20,503 nt of DNA, taken from a virus. Positions 4,535-20,503 of this stretch are shown piece after piece. The position numbers were made by a program, and so were the translations under genes. Below the pieces are notes generated by a model. That model ran no database searches and was not told where the DNA came from. It saw only the letters and a list, made by a program, of their open reading frames with translations. Position 1 is the first letter of the stretch. Each line of letters begins with the position of its first letter. The stretch covers positions 1 through 20,503 of IMG/VR virus record IMGVR_UViG_3300044953_000392; one strand, 5' to 3'.

Positions 4535-5977
4535 ATGGGTATTAAAAAATATACAAATTTTGAACAGGTTAATTTAAAAACCACAAACGAAGGTCAGTTC
4601 TTACAAACTGAAGACTTTTTTATTGTCACAAAAAATGAAATTGAAGAAAGTTATTTTGGTGAATGTAAGTACGATGTAATGGAAGTAGCTGTGTATGACG
4701 TTAACAATAATCTTTTACCACAAAAGACCGGAAATAATGTCGCATACATAAAATCGCAAAACATTGCAGAATATATGTACAATATTACAAACCAGCAGGG
4801 CCAAAAGGAGTTAGCAATTAATGCTGAAAAATTATTAAACGATTTAGGTTTTACAAATGGTATACTTAAACTGAATATAAACTTTGTAAGAAACAAAATG
4901 GGTTCGGAAAACGAGTTAGAGAGGGTTTGGATTCAAGAAATATCACCATCAAGGGAAGAAGTGAGAATACTACCTTTAAAAACTAAATTTGAAAATATAA
5001 ATCAAAAAACTAATAAAGAGTTTGATAATTTTAATAATCTTACAAAAGATTTTATTTTTTATAAAAGAGAAATACTTGATTCATTAGATTTATATCAATC
5101 ACAATATCTTGAAAAAATAGATACAACTTTAGAAAGAAAATTTGGCAAAGATTTTTTTGCATTGCTGAAAAAAGATTTTGGACTTGCAAAATTTTCAGAA
5201 TTAAGAACAAAAATATTTTCAGATTTTAGAACATCTGTTTCATATTATTTAGAAAATCGTTACTATACATTGGGAGATGGTACATATGGTAAACCATCTG
5301 AAGTTCGTTTTGATAATTGTGAGAGATATGATTTTAATTTAATATTGGGTGATATTGAAAGTATATTAGTAAATTGTATCGCTGTAAATATGTCTTTTTT
5401 AAAGAGAAGAGAAATAGCAATAGTTAGAAAAGAAAGAGAATTTCTAAAAGTAGATGTTAAAAGGGATATTTTAGACACATTGGGATTATTTAATAATCCA
5501 GTTAAAGATGTAAAAGTGGTATTTGATGAGAAAAAAGCAATTAAGGTGAAAGCACTTGACATTTTTGGCGGATTGCCAGGTGGGCTTGGAGGTGGTGTTC
5601 CAGTAGATAAATTTGATTTACCAGTAGAACCGGATATACCTATTAAGGTTAATCCAATCGAAATAGCTGTAATACCAAAACCAAAACCTAAACTATTACT
5701 AATAGAAGATACACCGCCTATATTTGATTTTGATTTGATTCCTATTGATATTTTACCACCGCCGCCTAAATTTGATGATATATCAGAAACAATCGAACCT
5801 AGAGGTGGTTATGTTGTAGAACCAATTAAAGAAGTACCCCCTCCACCAGGTGGAGGTGTAGGCGGGGGTGTATTTATAAACAACGATCCTTCCAATTTTG
5901 GAAATAATGATGGGTCAGGAACTGGTAACAGTAACCCAAGAGATATAGGTGTAATATCATATGAAAATATGGAATAA
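4535..5977 (+). CDS. Baseplate-region structural protein with Gly/Pro-rich C-terminal tail
   Basis: The product is 480 aa and unnamed. Residues 1-150 form an alpha/beta domain (start MGIKKYTNFEQVNLKTT; then ERVWIQEISPSREEVRILPL). Residues 150-345 are mostly helical and charged, with aromatic-rich helices. From about residue 345 the composition changes sharply to low-complexity Gly and Pro runs (LPGGLGGGVPV, IPKPKPK, LPPPPKF, VPPPPGGGVGGGVF) to the end. Such a tail is probably extended and flexible. The ATG follows the previous stop by three bases with no Shine-Dalgarno. The next gene begins 20 bases downstream and its product also starts with a Gly/Pro-rich stretch. Position in the wedge gene block argues for a virion role. 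The reaction or exact partner cannot be read from the sequence. Confidence 0.6.
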   Translation: MGIKKYTNFEQVNLKTTNEGQFLQTEDFFIVTKNEIEESYFGECKYDVMEVAVYDVNNNLLPQKTGNNVAYIKSQNIAEYMYNITNQQGQKELAINAEKLLNDLGFTNGILKLNINFVRNKMGSENELERVWIQEISPSREEVRILPLKTKFENINQKTNKEFDNFNNLTKDFIFYKREILDSLDLYQSQYLEKIDTTLERKFGKDFFALLKKDFGLAKFSELRTKIFSDFRTSVSYYLENRYYTLGDGTYGKPSEVRFDNCERYDFNLILGDIESILVNCIAVNMSFLKRREIAIVRKEREFLKVDVKRDILDTLGLFNNPVKDVKVVFDEKKAIKVKALDIFGGLPGGLGGGVPVDKFDLPVEPDIPIKVNPIEIAVIPKPKPKLLLIEDTPPIFDFDLIPIDILPPPPKFDDISETIEPRGGYVVEPIKEVPPPPGGGVGGGVFINNDPSNFGNNDGSGTGNSNPRDIGVISYENME

Positions 5978-5979
5978 AA

Positions 5980-5988
5980 ATATTTATA
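5980..5988 (+). promoter_or_regulatory. ATATTTATA motif upstream of the giant gene (copy 1 of 3)
   Basis: ATATTTATA lies in the 20-bp gap before the 1871-aa gene, with nine bases between it and the ATG at 5998. The same 9-mer precedes the genes at 13614 and 14797. It may be a late-promoter-like or translation-related element. It is AT-only in an AT-rich genome, so the support comes mainly from its recurrence in gaps. Confidence 0.35.
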
Positions 5989-5997
5989 CAAAAGTAA

Positions 5998-8900
5998 ATG
6001 CCAGCAAAACAATCAGATTTTGATAGTGAATTAGGTGGAAGTGATATCGGTAATCCATACGATGGTACAGGTGTGTACAATCCATTCGTAAATGGTAGTG
6101 GAGAAGGTGGAAACACAGGAGGAACTTCTACAACCATTTCGACAGTAGGCGACATAGGAGGTGGAGGTGGTACGCTTGATGCTGGTGATGTTGTTTTTAT
6201 ACCACCTTTTGACCTAAACCCAAATTTTATTCCCCCATCATATGAACCATTCCCATATATTGGAATTTATATGGCTGCGCCAGAGCCGGTTCAATTCATT
6301 GAGGATGATAATCTATTAGGATTTGGTGAAGTATATAAAGTTCAATATCAACCATCCACGAAATTTGGAACAAGTAGAATTTATCGTGCGAATATAGATG
6401 GTAGAATATCAAAAAATTATTTCGTAGTTTCTATAAAAAAAGCATATCCAAAAGTAGACCTAATTGGTGTAGATGATTTAATAAAAGAACCAATAAAAAG
6501 TGATGTATTATCACCAATTAAGAGCGAACTTATAAAAGGATTTGAAACAAATTTTGGGACGGAATTAGAAAAAGGACCAAATACAAATTTAAAATTTCAA
6601 GCATCAAATACAGATTTTAATTTTAACCCAATACCACCTACAAGATTTGATGTTTTATATAAAGAAGTTATATCAGTACAAGAATATGAATATAATCTAA
6701 ATACAGGAGAATATGAGGCATTAGCGGAAAGAACTCAACCATCAGCTAATTCGACAGTTAGTCTAAATTTTGCCTTTATAACAAAAGATATACGTGATAT
6801 TGATCCAGACCCAGAATGTCCTGAACCGAATTTACCACCACCACCTCCAGGTAAAATATGGAAAAAGTTTTATATTGATGGACAAAAATGTCCCGAATGG
6901 AGATTAGTTGATGATGGTAGCGGTGACCCGATAAATGAAACAATAAATTATAATCTATCTTTTGTTTCAAACTATACATCCGAATTGGGTGAGTATATTA
7001 GATGTAATTACCAAATAGTAACAGCAGAAAATGATATATTAGATTCTGATTTTATAAAATTGAGTGATGGTAATTTGGATGCTAAATCAACCGATAAGAG
7101 TAAGTTATTATCAGGCCACATTAATATTAATATTACTGAAAATTACGAAACTGTAAGATTAAAATTAAATGAGGAAAACTTGCCTGAAGAATTTTCTTAC
7201 GAATGTTTTTATTGGGCAGATAATAAAATTGCAAAATTAAATCCAAATGATTTTTCCAAATGGAATAAAATCAACAAATCATTTAAAGTAACAGGTCAAG
7301 AATTTGCAAGTGGCATAACCGTTGCTGTTGTATTTAATAAAACAAAATACGAAATTTTATATGCACCAAAGATTACAAACTATTCGGGTAAAGGACAAGA
7401 AAATATATATGAGGTAAGAGAATCAGATATAGATAAAACAATAACAATAAACTTTACAACACAAAATGCCGAGTTTGTTGATGTATATATTTCGGATAGA
7501 CCAATAAGAGTTTTAGTATCTACTCAAGTAGGAAGAAATAATAGACGAATAGTAACAGAATCAGAGCCTGATTTTTCTGATGGAGTAACTAGTCAAACAG
7601 CTACCGTACAACTTTCTTTTAAAAACGATTTCGCTGGTTTATATGGTAGAAAAATAGTTTATTTAGTACCAGTAAATAATATCGGTATAGGTATTACTGA
7701 ATCTATTATTATTTCATTTAATCAAATAAATGATTTTCCATCGTTATTGGAGGTAACTGCGCCTGAGCAAATAGATGTTCCCGTATTTTCAGATTTAAAC
7801 GTAGATTTTAGTGTTGATTACGAAACATTTTCAGCAACTTCTGTTGATGTTTATTTATTGGATACAACTACAAGTCAAATAATTCCTTTATTTTCTAACT
7901 TACCTGCAATTGGTTCTTTTAATGTTAATTTAAGAGAATTAGTTACGAAATATTTACAAAATAAAAAGATAAATTTAATTTTTGGATTTATACCATATAA
8001 CAGAGGTGGTGAAAAAGAACTGATTGGTAATAGTTATGAAGTCATAACAATCGTAATATATCCAGAAATTATTTTAGATGAGTCGCAAATTAAAAATGCA
8101 ATATTTGAAACGATTTCCGAAAACCTTAAATTCAATAAATTAGAACCAGAGAGTAAATACTTAACGCATTTGATTAATTTTGAAAATAATGAACAAATTA
8201 TAATTTCATCGTGGGAAGAAGATGATTGGACATTATCCGAAAAGACTGAAGATGAAATCGGAAATATAATTGTAAAGAATAAAGTTGATTCAATACTATT
8301 AAAATTATATTCACCACTACCAGCAAATATAGGAGTAAATTCAACTCTATGGGTTACAAAATTAATGAGTAATCCTTTAATAGAAACCGTAGTATTAAAT
8401 GAACAAGATTCAATTAAATGTCCACCAATTAAAGGACCAAACTTTAGTATAGAAGTTGATTTTGTAAGTGGACAATCTACTGCATTTGAATCTTTGGATA
8501 ATTTAATATTAAGCGCTTCTGCTATTTCCTCTGCTAATTTAATATCAACTTATTTAAGTTCATCTTTAATTAACACCGATGAATTGAATATAGAATATTA
8601 TAGTGGTTCAAACTTTTTAACAGGTTCTTTACAATGGGAAAATTTTGTACACTTTAGTTCAGCAAAAGAAAGAGTAGATAATTTTGTATATAAAATACAA
8701 CTTATAGAGATATATGAATCCTTAATTTCAGCATCAAATGCACCAGAATCACATAGTGGTTCTTTGGGTTCTAAACAAGAAGCAGAAAGACAAAATTTAA
8801 AGAAAAATCAATTAATAAATAATTTTGATGGATTTGAAAAGTTTTTATATACATCTGCATCAAATCTCACAACAACATCCGCTGCATCTATAACTTGGCC

Positions 8901-11613
8901 TTATGAAGGAAGTGTTAGATTAGCAAGTACAACGAATGTGGTAAATAGTTGGTATGAAAATTTAATAGAAATAGCAGAAAATTATGACAATGAAAATCAA
9001 AACTATTTAAAAAATAATATTCCACAATATATTTTAAATAATAATGAAAATGATAACTTTTTGTTATTCTTTTCAATGATTGGACATCATTTCGATAACA
9101 TATATTATTTCACAAAGGCTTTAGAAAAAAATAAAGGTTTAGGGTATAAAGCAAAGGGAGGAATGCCTGATAAGTTACTGTTTGATACTTTGAAATCGTT
9201 TGGCTGGGATGCTAAAAATCTAGCGGCCGATGAAAAACTTTGGAAATATGTTTATGGACAAGATTCAAATGGTAATACAAAAGAATCAAAATCTCCAAAG
9301 CAAAGGACTAATGAAATATGGAGAAGAATAGTGAATAACCTACCATATCTTTTAAAACACAAAGGCACTCGTAGAGGTGTTTATGCAATTATGGCTTGTT
9401 ATGGTATTCCTTCATCAAATCTTTCTATTTTAGAATTTGGTGGTCCAGAAGGAACCGATAGGTTTTCGGAAACAGAAGAAATCGGTACTACAAAATTATT
9501 AATGGATAATATAACTTATGCATTGGTAATGAATAGTGGTTCTAAAATAGAATTGGAATGGAAAACTACCGATAAAGGATATAAACCAAAGACAATAGAA
9601 TTATTTTTAAAACCAAACGAAGCACAAAATACTACATTTATTTCAGGTTCGGCTGGATGGAATATTGAATTGTCTGGATCAGTTGGTAGTGAGTTTGGTG
9701 TCATAAAATATAATAGTGGAAGTACAAATGTAATAACAACAGATAGTTTACCTATTTTTAATGATAGATTTTTTGGTATGTGTTTATCATCAGGATCAAA
9801 TGGAATGAGATTGGATGTTAAGCAAGTAGAAAAAGATAAAAATATTTTTGAAAATTCATATAGTTCATCTTTAAATAATAATTTTGGCCCGCAAACAGAT
9901 AGAGTTTATTTTGGTTGGGATTACACGGGAAGTTTAGATGAAGTAAGATTGTGGTCTACACAATTGTCTACATCGGCATTTAGTAGACATGTATTATTTC
10001 CTGAAGCAATAAATGGTAATCATATTTCATCATCAACCGAAGATTTATACTTCCGTTTAGATTTTGAATACCCAAAGAATTTGTATTTAACATCATCTTT
10101 ATTAAATGTAGATACAAACATTTTTTTTAGTGGTAGTTTATCAAGAAATGATTATGAAAATAGACCATCATTATCTGCTTCGTTATTTTCTTCAAATGCA
10201 TCACCTTTATTATACGCAACAGCAAGTGGATTTGTTTCATCATCTTTGACATATTCATATCCATATCACTTTGAAGTTGTTGAAAGAACCGTTTCTTTAG
10301 AAATTCCAAATATTGGTTCAAGTAGATATTCTACAAACAAAATTCGTTTTGAGTCACAATTTGATGTATTTGGTAATGATGTTTCTGGTGGTATAAATCT
10401 GTCCTGTAAGAGTAGAGCAACAAAAAAATCATTTGGCCAATCTCCAATGGATTCTAATAGAATTGGATTATTTTTCTCTCCTACAAAAGAATTAAATATT
10501 GATATTGCAAAATCATTTGGTGGTATTAATTTAGATGATTATATAGGAGACCCTTCAGATGAATTTCGTTCAAATTATAAATCATTAGATAAGTTAAGAA
10601 ATTATTATTTTCAAAGATTTAATGGTAGAGATATATACCAATACATCAATCTAATTAAATCTTATGAAAAATCTCTTTTTGAAGATATTAAAAAAATGTT
10701 ACCTGCGAGAGTTAAAGCTACTAGTGGTTTATTAATTGAACCGCATATTTTAGAAAGAAGTAAAATAGAAGAATCTAAACCGACAGGTGAACAATATCAA
10801 AAAGAATCAATAATAAACACTACTGAACATATAATTACTTCTGCTAAAAATAATCAATTTGAATCCATAATTGATACCAATCTTGCAAAAACTTTAATTG
10901 GAGAAAATAATCAATATGAGGTAATTATAGAAAATGGTAATATTACCAATACAACTGCAGAAAATTATCAATATGAAACTCCAATATATGTTAATGATGA
11001 ATTTAGCTCATCGGGCGAATCATATCAGAAAGAAGTTAATATAGATGCAAATTTGGGCGATGGTACAATATTAACAGAATTGGATATTTTTGATATAAAT
11101 ACTATAGCTGGCCAAAGCGATTTAGAAACAATTGGATTTGGTATTTACGCACAAAGTGGTTCGGCTATTAGAACATATTTTGACAAAGAGGGTAGAAGAG
11201 TTAAAGAAAGGATTAGAGTAAATTTAGTAACAGAACAAAAACAAAGAGATATTGTAAAATTTAGAATTGTAATTAATGGAAAAGGTGACCCTAGAGGTGG
11301 TATGGAATTAACTTCATCTTTTTATACTGAAACTAAATTAAATATACAACCATTTAGCGGTTCAACTGTCCCTACAATTGGTGGTAATATTATAGATGTA
11401 AAGCCTGTTAGTGGATATTTAAAAACCCATTATAAAAACACTTCTGATTTGACAAGAGGTTTGGAGAATTCATTTTTTAGAGGTTCAAGAAATACAGCAG
11501 TAACTACATTAGATGGTACTCCTCCTGTAGAAACATTTACTACTAATCCAAATACATTAAGAGTAAATAAAGCAGGTAGAGATGCAAGTGAACCAATATT
11601 GGAAGTAGAATAA
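5998..11613 (+). CDS. Giant (1871 aa) baseplate wedge protein: tail-protein-I/gp7-like with LamG domain and tandem repeats
   Basis: This is the largest gene of the window. Residues 1-90 are Gly/Pro-rich and low complexity. Residues 90-900 are a long series of beta-rich segments, with a proline stretch (NLPPPPPGKIW) near 280. Residues about 1017-1150 are helical and carry the most informative region (DNFLLFFSMIGHHFDNIYYF, then RRIVNNLPYLLKHKGTRRG and ACYGIPSSNLSILEFGG). This resembles the tail protein I / T4 gp7 type of wedge protein that pairs with gp6. Residues about 1175-1345 look like a LamG/concanavalin-type jelly roll, with YFGWDYTGSLDEVRLWSTQL as its signature end. Five 19-residue repeats occupy about 1597-1691, and a beta-rich C-terminus follows. 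T4 gp7 is about 1030 aa, so this is a much enlarged relative if the assignment holds. The LamG-like domain could bind glycans or only add structural bulk. The virion role is secure; the gp7 equivalence is inference from local similarity and gene order. Confidence 0.75.
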   Translation: MPAKQSDFDSELGGSDIGNPYDGTGVYNPFVNGSGEGGNTGGTSTTISTVGDIGGGGGTLDAGDVVFIPPFDLNPNFIPPSYEPFPYIGIYMAAPEPVQFIEDDNLLGFGEVYKVQYQPSTKFGTSRIYRANIDGRISKNYFVVSIKKAYPKVDLIGVDDLIKEPIKSDVLSPIKSELIKGFETNFGTELEKGPNTNLKFQASNTDFNFNPIPPTRFDVLYKEVISVQEYEYNLNTGEYEALAERTQPSANSTVSLNFAFITKDIRDIDPDPECPEPNLPPPPPGKIWKKFYIDGQKCPEWRLVDDGSGDPINETINYNLSFVSNYTSELGEYIRCNYQIVTAENDILDSDFIKLSDGNLDAKSTDKSKLLSGHININITENYETVRLKLNEENLPEEFSYECFYWADNKIAKLNPNDFSKWNKINKSFKVTGQEFASGITVAVVFNKTKYEILYAPKITNYSGKGQENIYEVRESDIDKTITINFTTQNAEFVDVYISDRPIRVLVSTQVGRNNRRIVTESEPDFSDGVTSQTATVQLSFKNDFAGLYGRKIVYLVPVNNIGIGITESIIISFNQINDFPSLLEVTAPEQIDVPVFSDLNVDFSVDYETFSATSVDVYLLDTTTSQIIPLFSNLPAIGSFNVNLRELVTKYLQNKKINLIFGFIPYNRGGEKELIGNSYEVITIVIYPEIILDESQIKNAIFETISENLKFNKLEPESKYLTHLINFENNEQIIISSWEEDDWTLSEKTEDEIGNIIVKNKVDSILLKLYSPLPANIGVNSTLWVTKLMSNPLIETVVLNEQDSIKCPPIKGPNFSIEVDFVSGQSTAFESLDNLILSASAISSANLISTYLSSSLINTDELNIEYYSGSNFLTGSLQWENFVHFSSAKERVDNFVYKIQLIEIYESLISASNAPESHSGSLGSKQEAERQNLKKNQLINNFDGFEKFLYTSASNLTTTSAASITWPYEGSVRLASTTNVVNSWYENLIEIAENYDNENQNYLKNNIPQYILNNNENDNFLLFFSMIGHHFDNIYYFTKALEKNKGLGYKAKGGMPDKLLFDTLKSFGWDAKNLAADEKLWKYVYGQDSNGNTKESKSPKQRTNEIWRRIVNNLPYLLKHKGTRRGVYAIMACYGIPSSNLSILEFGGPEGTDRFSETEEIGTTKLLMDNITYALVMNSGSKIELEWKTTDKGYKPKTIELFLKPNEAQNTTFISGSAGWNIELSGSVGSEFGVIKYNSGSTNVITTDSLPIFNDRFFGMCLSSGSNGMRLDVKQVEKDKNIFENSYSSSLNNNFGPQTDRVYFGWDYTGSLDEVRLWSTQLSTSAFSRHVLFPEAINGNHISSSTEDLYFRLDFEYPKNLYLTSSLLNVDTNIFFSGSLSRNDYENRPSLSASLFSSNASPLLYATASGFVSSSLTYSYPYHFEVVERTVSLEIPNIGSSRYSTNKIRFESQFDVFGNDVSGGINLSCKSRATKKSFGQSPMDSNRIGLFFSPTKELNIDIAKSFGGINLDDYIGDPSDEFRSNYKSLDKLRNYYFQRFNGRDIYQYINLIKSYEKSLFEDIKKMLPARVKATSGLLIEPHILERSKIEESKPTGEQYQKESIINTTEHIITSAKNNQFESIIDTNLAKTLIGENNQYEVIIENGNITNTTAENYQYETPIYVNDEFSSSGESYQKEVNIDANLGDGTILTELDIFDINTIAGQSDLETIGFGIYAQSGSAIRTYFDKEGRRVKERIRVNLVTEQKQRDIVKFRIVINGKGDPRGGMELTSSFYTETKLNIQPFSGSTVPTIGGNIIDVKPVSGYLKTHYKNTSDLTRGLENSFFRGSRNTAVTTLDGTPPVETFTTNPNTLRVNKAGRDASEPILEVE
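10786..11070 (+). repeat. Five in-frame 57-bp (19-residue) tandem repeats in the giant protein
   Basis: Residues 1597-1691 of the 1871-aa protein divide without gaps into five 19-residue units. They begin GEQYQKESII, AKNNQFESII, GENNQYEVII, AENYQYETPI and GESYQKEVNI. Every unit has Q at position 5, E at position 7 and I at position 10, with G or A at position 1. The second half of each unit is variable. The DNA copies have diverged, so this is an old protein-level repeat and not a recent slippage expansion. The pattern would suit a short repetitive beta structure. Confidence 0.8.
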
Positions 11614-15011: not shown

Positions 15012-15428
15012 ATGACAAAAAAAGTTACAAAAAAGAAAGCCAACTCTAAATGGGTTGCAAAGAAGTATGGATTTAAGTCAGGTCTTGAAGAAAACATTTC
15101 CCAACAAATCAAAGGTAAAGGAATTAAAGTTGAGTATGAAACAGAACAGATTCCTTATATTGTACCTGTTAGTGAACATACTTACCATCCTGATTTTCTT
15201 TTACCTAACGGAATCAGAATAGAAACAAAAGGTAGATTTGTTATCGCAGATAGGAAAAAACATCTGTTAGTTAAAGAACAACATCCAGAATTAGATATTC
15301 GTTTCATATTTACAAATTCAAAGAATAAAATCAGTAAAAAATCCAAAACAACCTACGGAATGTGGTGTGAAAAATATGGATTTAAATATGCGGACAAAGA
15401 AATTCCGAATGATTGGTTTGAAGAATAA
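15012..15428 (+). CDS. T7 endonuclease I-like Holliday junction resolvase
   Basis: The product resolves branched DNA such as four-way junctions, working as a dimer in the cytoplasm during phage recombination and before packaging. At 138 aa (T7 gp3 is 149) it follows T7 endonuclease I closely: SGLEENISQQ, then EYETEQIPYIVPVSEHTYHP, DFLLPNGI, ETKG, DRKKHLLVKEQHPELDIRF, and a YGMWCEKYGFKYADK-type C-terminus. The four catalytic residues of the T7 enzyme (E20, D55, E65, K67) map to E26, D61, E71 and K73, each shifted by exactly six, so the active site is intact. The N-terminus is Lys-rich, as in T7. The ATG lies five bases after the 69-aa gene, with AAAGAG about ten bases upstream as a weak ribosome site. 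The stop is three bases before the polymerase gene, suggesting one transcript. Confidence 0.95.
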   Translation: MTKKVTKKKANSKWVAKKYGFKSGLEENISQQIKGKGIKVEYETEQIPYIVPVSEHTYHPDFLLPNGIRIETKGRFVIADRKKHLLVKEQHPELDIRFIFTNSKNKISKKSKTTYGMWCEKYGFKYADKEIPNDWFEE

Positions 15429-15431
15429 GTT

Positions 15432-17093
15432 ATGTGTAAAGTATTAATTGATAAATTTGTAAGAGAATATCCATTACACTTTGATTATGTTAGAAGGTTA
15501 AAAGAGGAGTTTGAAATTATTGAGCAGAAAGGTTTTATTGAAACCTATAAACAAGTTTGGGATATTATACAAATTGTAAAACAAAAAGGTTATTTATGGT
15601 TATTAAGAGGTAGTGGTGCTAGCTCTTTAGTTGCTTATTATATGGGTATACATGATATAGACCCAATAAAAGAAAATATTCCAATTGAACGTTTTTTAAA
15701 TTGGACGAGAGAAGACCAGCCGGATTTTGACATTGATGTTCCTTATGATGTTAGAGATGAAATACTATTAATGATTGGAGAAAAATATCCAAACATGGTC
15801 TCTCGTATTTCTAATAGAGTAAAATACACAGAAAAATCTGCATTAAGAGAAGCAATCCGTCAATGTGGTTATCGTAAGTTTGTTCCTAAATGGTTTAAGG
15901 TTGAAAAGATATTTTCAGATGTTCAAACACAACAAAAGTGTTATAGAATTGCTGAAAAACTATTGGGTAAACAAAGAAATTGGAGTAAACATTGTGGGGG
16001 TATTGTAATTTGGAAAGATGGGATACCAGAAGAACTTATACTTAAAGAAAATCAAATAGCAGTAGATAAATATGATGTAGAGGAACACAATTGGATAAAG
16101 ATTGATCTCCTTTGTAATAGAGGATTAGCTCAATTAAGAGAGTTAGACCCAATTACAAAGTTATCTGAATACCAATTTGATGATAAACTTACATCGGAAT
16201 TATTATGTAGTGGTGATGTATTAGGTTTGACGCAAAGTGAGAGTAGAACGATGAGGAAAACTATTCTTGCTATCCAACCAAAGAATATGTACGATGTTGC
16301 ATTAGCACTAGCATTAATTAGACCGGCTGCAGCGGATGGTGGTAGAAAAGCAAGTTATTTTAGAGATGGCAAAGCAATGTTTGTGTACGATGAAGATGCG
16401 CTCACATTTATATCATCCGCAATAGGTTGTACTCTTTCAGAGGCGGATAGATATCGAAGGGGGTTTGCTAATTTGAGAGCAGATATAATTAAGGATTTTA
16501 AGCAAAAGTGTGATAATATAGATATACTAAAAGAACTATCACATCTTCGTAAGTATTCTTTTGCAAAAGGACATTCAATAGCGTACGGTCAAATGGTTTG
16601 GGCATTGGCATATCACAAAGCCCGTAATCCTAAAAAGTTTTGGGAAGCAACATTAAAACATAATCAATCATCTTATAAAAAATGGGTGCATATAAGAGAA
16701 GCGATTATAAATGGTGTAGAAATTAATAATAAACAAACAGGAACTATATATGACCAATTTACAAAAACAGGTTGGTGGGATAGTAAAAATTTTTTACCAA
16801 AATTAGGTGGTGGGGAGCATGAAGGACAATTTTATTTTAATGGAATAGTTGCAAATTTCCGTAAACTAAATAGGTATGGCAAAAATTGTGTATTAATGAC
16901 GATTGGAACAGCAAATGGAGAATATATAGATTTAGTCATCAATAAAAAATATCCATTTGGTTATTATGGTTGTATAGAAGGATGGGGATTGAAAAAAGAA
17001 CAATTTAACTCATCATTTATAGAAGTACAAGATTTTAGACCATATAATTTACACGGTTCGGCAGAGCATAAAATGGAAAAGTTTTTTGTATAA
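15432..17093 (+). CDS. Compact DnaE-like (C-family) DNA polymerase lacking the PHP domain
   Basis: The protein extends DNA primers; it is related to the bacterial replicase subunit Pol III alpha but has 553 aa instead of about 1100-1200. It starts directly in the palm. RGSGASSLVAYY (59-70) matches the nucleotide-binding GRGSGAGSLVAY motif. PDFDID (97-102) supplies two catalytic aspartates (D100, D102), and IKIDLL (222-227) supplies the conserved Lys and third aspartate (K223, D225). The thumb motif is NWSKHCGGIVI (183-193). Fingers elements are GDVLGLTQSESRTM (261-274), ALIRPAA (294-300), LSEADRYRR (335-343) and FAKGHSIAYG (377-386). Residues about 465-535 look like the C-terminal OB fold. 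Missing are the PHP domain, the tandem HhH/clamp-binding region and the tau-binding end; part of the fingers is also short. No clamp-binding peptide is obvious. The start is three bases after the endonuclease stop, so no upstream extension is possible without overlap. Polymerase activity is likely but inferred. Confidence 0.88.
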   Translation: MCKVLIDKFVREYPLHFDYVRRLKEEFEIIEQKGFIETYKQVWDIIQIVKQKGYLWLLRGSGASSLVAYYMGIHDIDPIKENIPIERFLNWTREDQPDFDIDVPYDVRDEILLMIGEKYPNMVSRISNRVKYTEKSALREAIRQCGYRKFVPKWFKVEKIFSDVQTQQKCYRIAEKLLGKQRNWSKHCGGIVIWKDGIPEELILKENQIAVDKYDVEEHNWIKIDLLCNRGLAQLRELDPITKLSEYQFDDKLTSELLCSGDVLGLTQSESRTMRKTILAIQPKNMYDVALALALIRPAAADGGRKASYFRDGKAMFVYDEDALTFISSAIGCTLSEADRYRRGFANLRADIIKDFKQKCDNIDILKELSHLRKYSFAKGHSIAYGQMVWALAYHKARNPKKFWEATLKHNQSSYKKWVHIREAIINGVEINNKQTGTIYDQFTKTGWWDSKNFLPKLGGGEHEGQFYFNGIVANFRKLNRYGKNCVLMTIGTANGEYIDLVINKKYPFGYYGCIEGWGLKKEQFNSSFIEVQDFRPYNLHGSAEHKMEKFFV

Positions 17094-17131: not shown

Positions 17132-18073
17132 GTGTTGAAGCAGACTGATAAAAATATTGTAATATCTACGTTATCTAATACGTTGGGTAGTTATTCTACA
17201 TTAAAGGGTAACGAATTAGCATTTTATTGTCCGTTTTGTAATCACCACAAACAAAAATTACAGATAAACACAGAAACCCAAAAGTGGCATTGTTGGACTT
17301 GTAATAGTGGTGGTAGGAAATTGACATCCCTGCTTCGTAAACTTGATGTGGATAGGAAAACTATATCCGTAATCAGAGAAATATACGGAGATAGTAATTG
17401 GACACCACAGCAAGAGGATACTGATACAAAGGTATTTATTTCCCTTCCAAAAGAGTTTATTAGTTTATCAGAAGAACCGAAAGGGTTTAATCCTGAATAT
17501 AAAAATGCAATTTATTATCTTACTAAAAGAGGTATTACAATAAAAGATATAATTAAATACAATATTGGTTATTGTAAAGAAGGATTGTATGCACAAAGAG
17601 TAATTATTCCTTCATACAATTCCGATGGGTCACTTAACTACTTTGTTTCCAGGTCTTACTATCCTGAAAACAAAATGAAATACAAAAACCCACCAATCAG
17701 CAAAAATATAATTTGTTTTGAATCGCAGGTAAATTGGAAAGAACCGATTATACTTTGTGAGGGTGTATTTGATGCAATTACAATTAAAAGAAACGCAATA
17801 CCACTTTTGGGTAAGTTTCCATCTAAACAATTGGTAGAAAAAATTTTTATGAGTGGAGTAAATAATATCATTATCTCATTGGATAATGATGCTATGGCAG
17901 AAGCATTAAAAGCAGCAGAGTATTTTCGTAAAAATGGAATAAATGTAAAAATGATGTATCTAAAAGATAAAGATGCTGCCGATATGGGTTATGAAAACTT
18001 TTATGAAGAACTAAAGAAAACTAAAGAATTTAATAGTGAGGAATTACTATTGATGAAAATAAATCAATTATGA
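17132..18073 (+). CDS. DnaG-like DNA primase (zinc ribbon plus TOPRIM)
   Basis: The product synthesises RNA primers on single-stranded DNA. An N-terminal CHC2-type zinc ribbon is visible at residues 31-62: FYCPFCNHHKQKLQI and KWHCWTCNSGG give C33, C36, C54 and C57 as likely zinc ligands. The catalytic core has the TOPRIM signature: ILCEGVFDA (E210), SLDNDA (D251, D253), and DKDAADMG near 279-286. At 313 aa it is close in size to T4 gp61 (342) and much shorter than DnaG; no helicase domain is fused. The frame opens with GTG at 17132, immediately after an in-frame TAG at 17129; a TTG follows at 17135, and no in-frame ATG occurs before the zinc ribbon, so a non-ATG start is required. The stop overlaps the next start (ATGA). 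Partners are probably the polymerase upstream and a helicase outside the window. Confidence 0.9.
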   Translation: MLKQTDKNIVISTLSNTLGSYSTLKGNELAFYCPFCNHHKQKLQINTETQKWHCWTCNSGGRKLTSLLRKLDVDRKTISVIREIYGDSNWTPQQEDTDTKVFISLPKEFISLSEEPKGFNPEYKNAIYYLTKRGITIKDIIKYNIGYCKEGLYAQRVIIPSYNSDGSLNYFVSRSYYPENKMKYKNPPISKNIICFESQVNWKEPIILCEGVFDAITIKRNAIPLLGKFPSKQLVEKIFMSGVNNIIISLDNDAMAEALKAAEYFRKNGINVKMMYLKDKDAADMGYENFYEELKKTKEFNSEELLLMKINQL

Positions 18074-20503
18074 AATTAAAAAGAATTTATCATATCGCAG
18101 ACGTTCATATTCGTAATGTGAAAAGACACAAAGAGTATAGACAAGTATTTGAAAAAATGTTTGAAGAAATCTGTCAAAGAGGAACGGAGGATTCAATTAT
18201 TTATTTAGCAGGTGATATTGCACATGCTAAATTGGAAATGTCTCCTGAATTATTAAAGGAGATTAGTTGGTTATTTACTGAATGTTCTAAATTGTGCACA
18301 ACAATTCTTATTACAGGTAATCACGATTGTAATATGAACAATTTGGATAGATTGGATGTTCTTACACCAATTGTAGAAGCATTGGATTTACCAAACTTTC
18401 ACTATTTGAGAGATACGCAGGTATATTCTATTGGTGGAGTTGATTTTTCCGTATTCTCAATTTTTGATAATAAAGACAATTGGATTACCGCAGATAAAAT
18501 TTTTGGTAATAAAAAGATTGCACTATTCCACGGACCCGTTGATAACTCAATGACCGATGTGGGGTATGTAGTTAGTAGTAGACATTTCACAACGGATATA
18601 TTTGATGGATTTGATTTGGCACTATTGGGTGATATCCACAAAAGACAAGAAATGATTAGTCCGAAAGGGTGTAAGATTGCATATGCCGGTTCATTGGTAC
18701 AACAAAACTTCGGTGAGACATTGGATAAGCACGGATTTCTTATTTGGGATTTAGATACTATGACATATGAAGCAGTGGATATTCTAAATGATTACGGATA
18801 CTATACTTTGGATGTTGATAATGGGTTTGTACCAGTTGTAACAAATATGCCAAAGCATGCACGTTTGAGAGTGCGTTTATCTAACACCGACACTGCGGAC
18901 ACGAAGAAAGTCCTAACACAAATAAAGATGCAGTATGGTATTGAGGATTTTACTCTTATCAGAACCGACTCACTTTCTAAATTAAAGACCGGTAATAGAC
19001 AAAACAAATTGGACTTTGAAAATATTACAGATGTAAACCATCAAAACTCACTTATACATGATTATGTGAGTAGAATGATGCCATTTGTGAACAATGCGGA
19101 CTTAGCAGAATTAGAAACAATTAACAGAGATATAAATAGTAGGATAGTATTAGATGATGTGGTTAGAAATATCCAATGGAAACCTATCAGATTTGAATTT
19201 TCCAATATGTTCTCCTATGGTGAGGATAATAATATTGATTTCACAAAGTTAAATGGTTTGATGGGATTGTTTGCACCAAATGCAAGTGGTAAATCATCCC
19301 TATTTGATGCAATCTCTTTCTGTCTTTACGATAAGAGTAGTAGAGCATTTAAAGCAGCAAACATAATGAATAATCGTAAAACGGATTTCAAATGTAAGTT
19401 AGAATTTGATATTAATGGTGAACGATACTTCATTGAAAGAACTGCAAAGACCGTAAACAAAGGAAAGAATGTAAAAGTGGATGTGGAATTTTACCGAATG
19501 GATGGTAATGAAAGAACATCTTTAAACGGAACGGAACGTAGAGATACAAACGCAGTAATTGAACAATATGTAGGAACATATGAAGATTTTGTTCTTACTG
19601 CATTGAGTTTACAAGGTAATAATGCACTTTTTATTGATAAATCTCAAAGTGAGAGAAAGGATTTATTGGCACAATTTATGGGATTAAATATCTTTGATAA
19701 ATTGTACGATACAGCAGTGGAGGATATTAGAGAAGTTAGCATACTTATTAAAAATTTTAAGAAAACCGACTTTACGACAGAATTGGCCAATAAGGGTATT
19801 GATATTAAGAATAAAAATAGTGAATTAATAGAATTACAAACACACTTAAATAGTGAAACAAAGATTAAGGTTGATATTGAAAATGTTATATTGGATTTGA
19901 CAAGACAACTTACGCCAATTGATTCTAAATTGGATTTACCCACATTGAGAACAAAAAGAGATAGCCTGAAAGACCAAATTAAATCTTTAGAAACCGAATA
20001 TGAAGCAAAAGAAAGTAAAATTGAAGAATATAAAGAATTACTCAATGAAGTTTCTCAATCGGTTGTAAATAAATCCAAATCCAATGAACTTGATATAGAA
20101 GTTGTATATTCTAATTATCAATCAGAACAAAAAAAATTGATCGAAGCGGAAAAAGTATATTCAAACGCAAAATTATATTTAAGTTCTGCACAAGAAAAAA
20201 TTAAACATTTAGATAATCATAAATACGACCCTAATTGTAAATTTTGTTGTGATAATACATTCGTAAAGGATGCAATGAATGCAAAAGAATCATTACCACA
20301 ATTAGAACAAACAGTTAAAGATGCTTTAATATATGCAACTGGTATTCAACAAACTTTGGATAGATGGGAAGATATACCACAACAATATAATGAATGGAAT
20401 GATTTGAAAACAAAATACTCAAAGGGTAAAGTTATATTAGAAAAAACAGAAGCTGAATTAAGTGGTTTAGATACTAAAGAAGAATTATTACAAACTCAAT
20501 TGG
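18070..20503 (+). CDS. Fused Mre11/SbcD-type nuclease and Rad50/SbcC-type ATPase (gp47-gp46-like), 3' end cut by window edge
   Basis: One frame of at least 811 codons, without a stop, encodes both halves of the DNA-end-processing complex that T4 makes from genes 47 and 46. The nuclease half (about 1-350) has all metallophosphoesterase motifs: HIADVH (D11, H13), AGDIAH (D49), GNHD (N84, H85), FHG (H154), LGDIHKR (D188, H190), and AGSLVQQNFGE, followed by a capping domain. The ATPase half begins around residue 370 (IRFEFSNMFSYGE), has Walker A APNASGKSS (402-410), the Q-loop region SLQGNNALF, then a long coiled coil. CKFCC at 723-727 is the zinc-hook position. The returning coil, signature motif and Walker B must lie beyond the window. 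The ATG overlaps the primase stop by ATGA, indicating coupling. The fusion may fix 1:1 stoichiometry. Internal ATGs near residues 349-350, 380 and 398 could permit a separate ATPase product. Confidence 0.92.
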   Translation, partial: MKLKRIYHIADVHIRNVKRHKEYRQVFEKMFEEICQRGTEDSIIYLAGDIAHAKLEMSPELLKEISWLFTECSKLCTTILITGNHDCNMNNLDRLDVLTPIVEALDLPNFHYLRDTQVYSIGGVDFSVFSIFDNKDNWITADKIFGNKKIALFHGPVDNSMTDVGYVVSSRHFTTDIFDGFDLALLGDIHKRQEMISPKGCKIAYAGSLVQQNFGETLDKHGFLIWDLDTMTYEAVDILNDYGYYTLDVDNGFVPVVTNMPKHARLRVRLSNTDTADTKKVLTQIKMQYGIEDFTLIRTDSLSKLKTGNRQNKLDFENITDVNHQNSLIHDYVSRMMPFVNNADLAELETINRDINSRIVLDDVVRNIQWKPIRFEFSNMFSYGEDNNIDFTKLNGLMGLFAPNASGKSSLFDAISFCLYDKSSRAFKAANIMNNRKTDFKCKLEFDINGERYFIERTAKTVNKGKNVKVDVEFYRMDGNERTSLNGTERRDTNAVIEQYVGTYEDFVLTALSLQGNNALFIDKSQSERKDLLAQFMGLNIFDKLYDTAVEDIREVSILIKNFKKTDFTTELANKGIDIKNKNSELIELQTHLNSETKIKVDIENVILDLTRQLTPIDSKLDLPTLRTKRDSLKDQIKSLETEYEAKESKIEEYKELLNEVSQSVVNKSKSNELDIEVVYSNYQSEQKKLIEAEKVYSNAKLYLSSAQEKIKHLDNHKYDPNCKFCCDNTFVKDAMNAKESLPQLEQTVKDALIYATGIQQTLDRWEDIPQQYNEWNDLKTKYSKGKVILEKTEAELSGLDTKEELLQTQL

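Follow-up and report, generated by a model that had tools for sequence, protein, structure and literature searches.

A single-frame Mre11-Rad50 fusion gene in a virus contig and its relatives among phages

The last part of a 20.5-kb linear virus contig (20,503 nucleotides, here the window) seems to encode a nuclease and an ATPase, Mre11 and Rad50 (also known as SbcD and SbcC, or gp47 and gp46), as a single polypeptide. This locus raises the question of whether such a gene is real, how its two halves are joined, and which kind of protein it would make.

One reading frame from nuclease to ATPase

The fused Mre11-Rad50 gene occupies positions 18070..20502 of the plus strand. Its ATG shares bases with the stop codon of the preceding primase gene (ATGA), and the frame then runs stop-free for 811 of about 1047 codons and is still open at the window end. 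An earlier note on this DNA had claimed one uninterrupted frame from the phosphoesterase motifs to the Walker A motif, which is borne out by these 811 codons and by profile matches to both halves: Pfam Metallophos at residues 5-191 (37.5 bits) and AAA_23 at residues 378-595 (56.2 bits), each exceeding its curated cut-off, as well as an SbcD-like (3-306) and an SbcC-like (274-802) PHROGs match in the same frame. As in other proteins of this kind, the Mre11 phosphoesterase comes first and the Rad50 ATPase second within a single reading frame. The last 236 residues were taken from a near-identical contig, L002, which is 99% identical over residues 1-811 and completes a protein of 1047 aa (gene at L002 2875-6015); the numbering of the motifs is that of L002. 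Domain boundaries were also drawn from an AlphaFold2 model (AF2; monomer, 32-sequence alignment) with a mean pLDDT of 82 and a pTM of 0.47, a low value that leaves the placement of head, nuclease and coil, and the docking in cis of the Rad50-binding helices, to inference.

The nuclease half begins with an Mre11-like phosphoesterase domain at residues 1-240 (18070..18789, plus strand), recognised by the Metallophos profile, its motifs and a structural match, and continues with a capping domain at about residues 241-298 (18790..18963, plus strand), delimited by the AF2 model and the same structural match, in which the nuclease and capping domains of Staphylococcus aureus SbcD (7dog_A) are matched by residues 3-298 with a Z of 24.7 (VIA-align). 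The nuclease motifs read DVH (11-13), GDIAH (48-52), GNHD (83-86), H154 and GDIH (187-190), so that the metal-binding residues D11, H13, D49, N84, H85, H154 and H190 are kept. Two departures from the Mre11 of P. furiosus are seen, an Asp (D188) in place of the first histidine of motif V and a motif II that ends in His. Since phage T5 D12 has a GDxH motif too, a loss of nuclease activity would not be implied by this comparison of motifs.

The ATPase half starts with a Rad50 N-lobe at residues 369-540 (19174..19689, plus strand; AAA_23 profile and structural match to 7yzo_D), which contains the Walker A motif APNASGKS at residues 402-409 (19273-19296, plus strand). The first arm, the turn and part of the second arm of the Rad50 coiled coil follow up to the window end (19690..20502, plus strand), with coil helices predicted by AF2 on L002 at residues 540-715 and 730-900 and a zinc-hook CxxC at residues 723-726 (20236-20247, plus strand), much as the earlier note had described. 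This hook is found in 78 of the 78 loci reaching that point, out of 80 close loci. The signature, Walker B and D-loop, which the note proposed to look for in the same frame beyond the window, were found in L002: the signature CSGME at residues 958-962, Walker B and D-loop (FLVIDEGFGTLD) at 985-996 and also an H-switch (ISH) at 1020-1022. In this way, both Rad50 lobes are present, the one with Walker A in the window and the C-lobe through L002, and E. coli SbcC (7yzo_D) is matched by residues 370-1047 with a Z of 31.6 and 3.7 Å over 348 residues (VIA-align).

The junction between the two halves

The join had been placed by the earlier note across 20-30 residues near 345-372, where the Rad50-binding helices of Mre11 would normally lie. 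The predicted structure points to a different picture, in which the helices are kept and the true tether is narrower, of about 11 residues (358-368). AF2 predicts two helices at residues 322-336 and 342-357, in a block with a pLDDT of about 90, then a gap at 358-368 and the first Rad50 strand at 369-378, which the long helices of the coil and the C-lobe follow. The junction would thus comprise a strap between the capping domain and the helices, predicted as disordered (residues 301-315, pLDDT under 50; 18970..19014, plus strand), the helix-loop-helix (HLH) that forms the Rad50-binding domain of Mre11 (residues 322-357; 19033..19140, plus strand) and a covalent linker of 11 aa (residues 358-368; 19141..19173, plus strand), the latter defined by the AF2 boundaries, the lengths found in the clade and a codon-position test. 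Counterparts of residues 322-357 are found by alignment in the C-terminal parts of T4 gp47, T5 D12 and E. coli SbcD, and the family profile over 182-349 aligns to residues 204-370 of the Thermotoga maritima Mre11 (3tho_B). Across the main clade of fused proteins, down to about 25% identity, the linker measures 10-13 residues, and 11 in most of them. Predicted structure and alignment therefore agree on a kept HLH and a linker within the range of about 9-12 residues described for other fusions (PMC3175470).

Among members at least 65% identical, the differences per codon position over residues 340-372 amount to 0.24, 0.17 and 0.40 for the first, second and third positions. This third-position excess continues through the linker, which argues for a linker that is read in frame and under constraint; judging from these substitutions, the codons of the junction are under purifying selection, looser than in the core domains.

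A forced 1:1 stoichiometry and a permanent tether, as the earlier note suggested, are plausible consequences of the fusion, but weaker than they sound, because the subunits of the native complex assemble 2:2 in any case and the base of the Rad50 coil is already bound by Mre11 through its HLH, which is apparently kept here. Moreover, stoichiometry would not be strictly locked if the fusion were accompanied by free Rad50 or free Mre11, arising from internal initiation or from proteolysis of the linker region. In-frame ATGs at residues 336, 337 and 380 are conserved, and the strap at 301-315, being predicted as disordered, could be cut; against this, no Shine-Dalgarno sequence precedes the in-frame ATGs near the junction in seven sampled members, Met336 and Met337 belong to the HLH or its immediate surroundings, and Met380 falls within the Rad50 fold, after the first strand of the core, so its product would be truncated. 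An internal translation start for a free Rad50 is consequently without support, and we regard this more complex scenario, proteolysis included, as unlikely.

Relatives, descent and variants

A scan of IMG/VR revealed 384 stretches encoding relatives of the protein, the best 80 of which were retained. All 80 cross the junction in one frame, with complete members of 1037-1054 aa from the start of the match, so that the search for other spanning fusions suggested in the earlier note was successful, and the two separate genes that it had considered for close relatives are found in none of these nearest loci. Scans with more distant queries added 34 loci, single-frame except for L106. Single-CDS fusions also occur in cultured phages: Microcystis phage Mel-JY01, Tenacibaculum phages PTm1 and pT24, Chryseobacterium phage MA9V-1, Sphingomonas phage PAU and Rhizobium phage RHph_TM40. 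No split at the Mre11-Rad50 junction was seen in the fused clade, where both exceptions break inside the nuclease. The loci L121-L135 come from a genome collection and belong to MAGs, most of them resembling phage contigs binned with bacteria; left out of the count were L133 (apparently Mre11-only) and L130 (truncated), both of which reach frame breaks or masked N, and L134, which ends soon after the nuclease part. Neither a second, unfused Rad50-type ATPase nor a second long nuclease-ATPase frame was detected in 11 long IMG/VR contigs or in the 190-kb genome of Mel-JY01, and the small stand-alone phosphoesterases of G001 and G008 have no ATPase partner.

A tree built on conserved columns of Mre11 and Rad50 unites 27 fused proteins, and two more whose nuclease is split, in a single clade (support 100/98), outside of which fall the two-gene sets of T4, T5, SPO1, Staphylococcus, GAP32, a cyanophage, a Vibrio phage and E. 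coli. The Rhizobium RHph_TM40 fusion, with a short junction and no HLH, sits on a long branch outside the main clade, and a single origin that includes it is not rejected (p-AU 0.39). That at least this one phage fusion stands apart would favour an independent and recent fusion of an ordinary gp47-gp46 operon in the window phage, but the grouping of the fused proteins away from the two-gene sets, together with a linker of nearly constant length in the clade, speaks against it, and the fused close relatives of the window phage rule it out, leaving this origin a very small probability. As for an assembly or sequencing artefact, in which an indel or a lost stop merged two adjacent genes, the window is certainly a single metagenomic contig whose ORF runs off the end, but the same continuous frame in 80 independent contigs, in the isolate Mel-JY01 (1066 aa, one CDS) and in contigs down to about 25% identity, along with the codon-position signal through the junction, rules out a frameshift or misassembly at this point and reduces its chances to practically nil. 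The window gene is thus confirmed as a genuine single-frame Mre11-Rad50 fusion.

Some members of the fused clade show further rearrangements. In a 484-kb phage (LR756508.1; L083, positions 5965-10178) the nuclease is interrupted just after GDIHKRQ by a Cys-rich ORF of 305 aa with a weak match to TnsA-like endonucleases, probably a homing-type insertion, and the Mre11-Rad50 junction remains fused; no Rfam match to an intron was obtained at this split. L106 (3313-6544) has its nuclease divided at this site too, here into two ORFs that overlap and lack an intervening endonuclease, and the two splits lie on different branches of the clade. A sub-clade comprising L104, L106, L127, L128 and L129 has a C-x6-C hook (e.g., VPCGDNFPTCRF) instead of CxxC.

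In a viral structure library, the best matches of the protein were giant-virus fusions (Tupanvirus, with 25% identity, Harvfovirus and Yasminevirus), followed by Tenacibaculum phages. A tentative proposal, to which we give somewhat less than even odds, would join two ideas: that the phage fusions, from the window type to those of 735-kb huge phages and jumbo phages of Bacteroidota, and the R555-like fusions of giant viruses go back to a single ancient fusion event whose product was passed between phages and viruses of eukaryotes, and that the near-invariant linker of 11 residues has a mechanical function, holding taut in cis and so setting which Mre11 serves which Rad50, rather than joining the halves passively.

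Neighbourhood, proposed role and known systems

Directly upstream of the fused gene lies a DnaG-like primase (17132..18073, plus strand; Pfam and PHROGs), which is a conserved neighbour, present in nearly all relatives carrying the flank except for the distant L084/L111-L120 group. A phage endonuclease I, a Holliday-junction resolvase of the T7 gp3 type (15012..15428, plus strand; Pfam PF05367, E 6e-58, and synteny), usually precedes the primase, giving the order endonuclease I, primase and Mre11-Rad50. RecA was found in the seven genomes (7/7) that were searched.

Between endonuclease I and primase, the window also holds a 553-aa DNA polymerase III alpha-like gene (15432-17093) with palm, fingers and following parts and a PDFDID motif, and without a PHP domain. 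It occurs only in the window and L002, is absent from this place in about 70 relatives with flank, and seems to have been inserted recently; the 484-kb phage LR756508 has a copy with 54.5% identity. In L024, L025, L044 and L066, endonuclease I and primase are separated by gaps of about 0.4-1.1 kb, which suggest that the spot beside endonuclease I is a hotspot of gene insertion. Elsewhere in the window (5998-11613), a 1871-aa protein with a weak laminin-G/lectin match is probably a tail or adhesin protein.

Altogether, we consider with a probability of roughly 0.9 that the window gene encodes a phage fusion of Mre11 and Rad50 of the type known from Mimivirus (R555), most likely dimerising into an M2R2 machine that processes DNA ends for recombination-dependent replication; the dimer architecture, the biochemical activity and the role are inferred. 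Each chain would carry, in this order, the nuclease, the capping domain, the Rad50-binding helices, the 11-residue linker and a complete Rad50 ATPase including its coiled coil and hook. Two such chains would dimerise into a normal M2R2 machine, each HLH packing against the base of the coiled coil in the same chain. ATP binding and hydrolysis would then open and close the nuclease, and DNA ends and hairpins would be processed to expose 3′ strands for a phage RecA-type recombinase. T4 gp46/gp47 acts in recombination-dependent replication and degrades host DNA; by analogy, the fused protein may resect and bridge ends in such replication, with degradation of host DNA as a possible additional role.

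Fusions of Mre11 and Rad50 (SbcDC) were described in 2011 by Yoshida, Claverie and Ogata in Mimivirus (R555), a Bacillus phage (0305phi8-36), plasmids, bacteria and eukaryotes, with Mre11 before Rad50, the HLH kept in most cases and a linker of 9-12 residues estimated from the T. maritima structure (PMC3175470). The window protein belongs to this known kind; at least 80 close phage relatives share its arrangement without exception, and cultured phages have it too, so it is not the unusual case that the earlier note took it for. As in R555, an N-terminal Mre11, a region of capping and HLH length, a short linker and a C-terminal Rad50 follow one another, and both motif departures reported for R555 (GDxxH in motif II, where His replaces the third Asp, and an Asp at the place of the first motif V His; PMC3175470) are seen in the window protein (GDIAH and GDIH). 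These departures are not exclusive, however, since GDxH occurs in T5 D12 and GDxxH in the two-gene phages SPO1, Stab22 and GAP32. The primase and endonuclease neighbours of the window match the SPO1-type primases and T7 gp3-type endonucleases carried by aquatic phage-like GOS scaffolds with R555 homologues (PMC3175470). R555 differs in its 1351 aa, its coil of cellular length and its amoeba-virus origin, compared with 1047 aa in a tailed phage for the window type; the link between both draws on the description in that paper and on the structural matches to giant-virus fusion proteins.

Among cultured phages, the single-CDS fusion of Mel-JY01 (WWT39521.1) is 43% identical to the window protein, whereas the jumbo-phage fusions are much more distant and longer (1301-1326 aa). 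The pairs T4 gp47/gp46, T5 D12/D13 and SPO1 gp21.3/gp21.9 share domains, motifs and a context of phage replication and recombination, but they are encoded by two genes, have Rad50 halves of 560-640 aa and fall outside the fused clade. The head complex of E. coli SbcCD (7yzo, 6s85) has the same Rad50 head fold, and the nuclease fold is shared via S. aureus SbcD, but it is made of two chains, with an SbcC that alone reaches 1048 aa and a canonical GHxH nuclease motif. With its short coil and a mass of about 120 kDa, a natural Mre11-Rad50 in one chain would be handy for structural and single-molecule studies of the gating of the nuclease by the ATPase, since neither stoichiometry nor pairing can vary in it. 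The cultured-phage fusions (Mel-JY01, PTm1, pT24, MA9V-1 and PAU gp288) appear in their annotations simply as AAA protein, DNA repair exonuclease, metallo-phosphoesterase or gp288, so that what phage entries label as AAA protein or phosphoesterase can be an entire end-processing machine. To the fusions described in 2011 we add full-length sequences, a linker of almost constant length and an HLH predicted to be retained, and an arrangement formerly called sporadic turns out to be uniform in a large group of aquatic phages.
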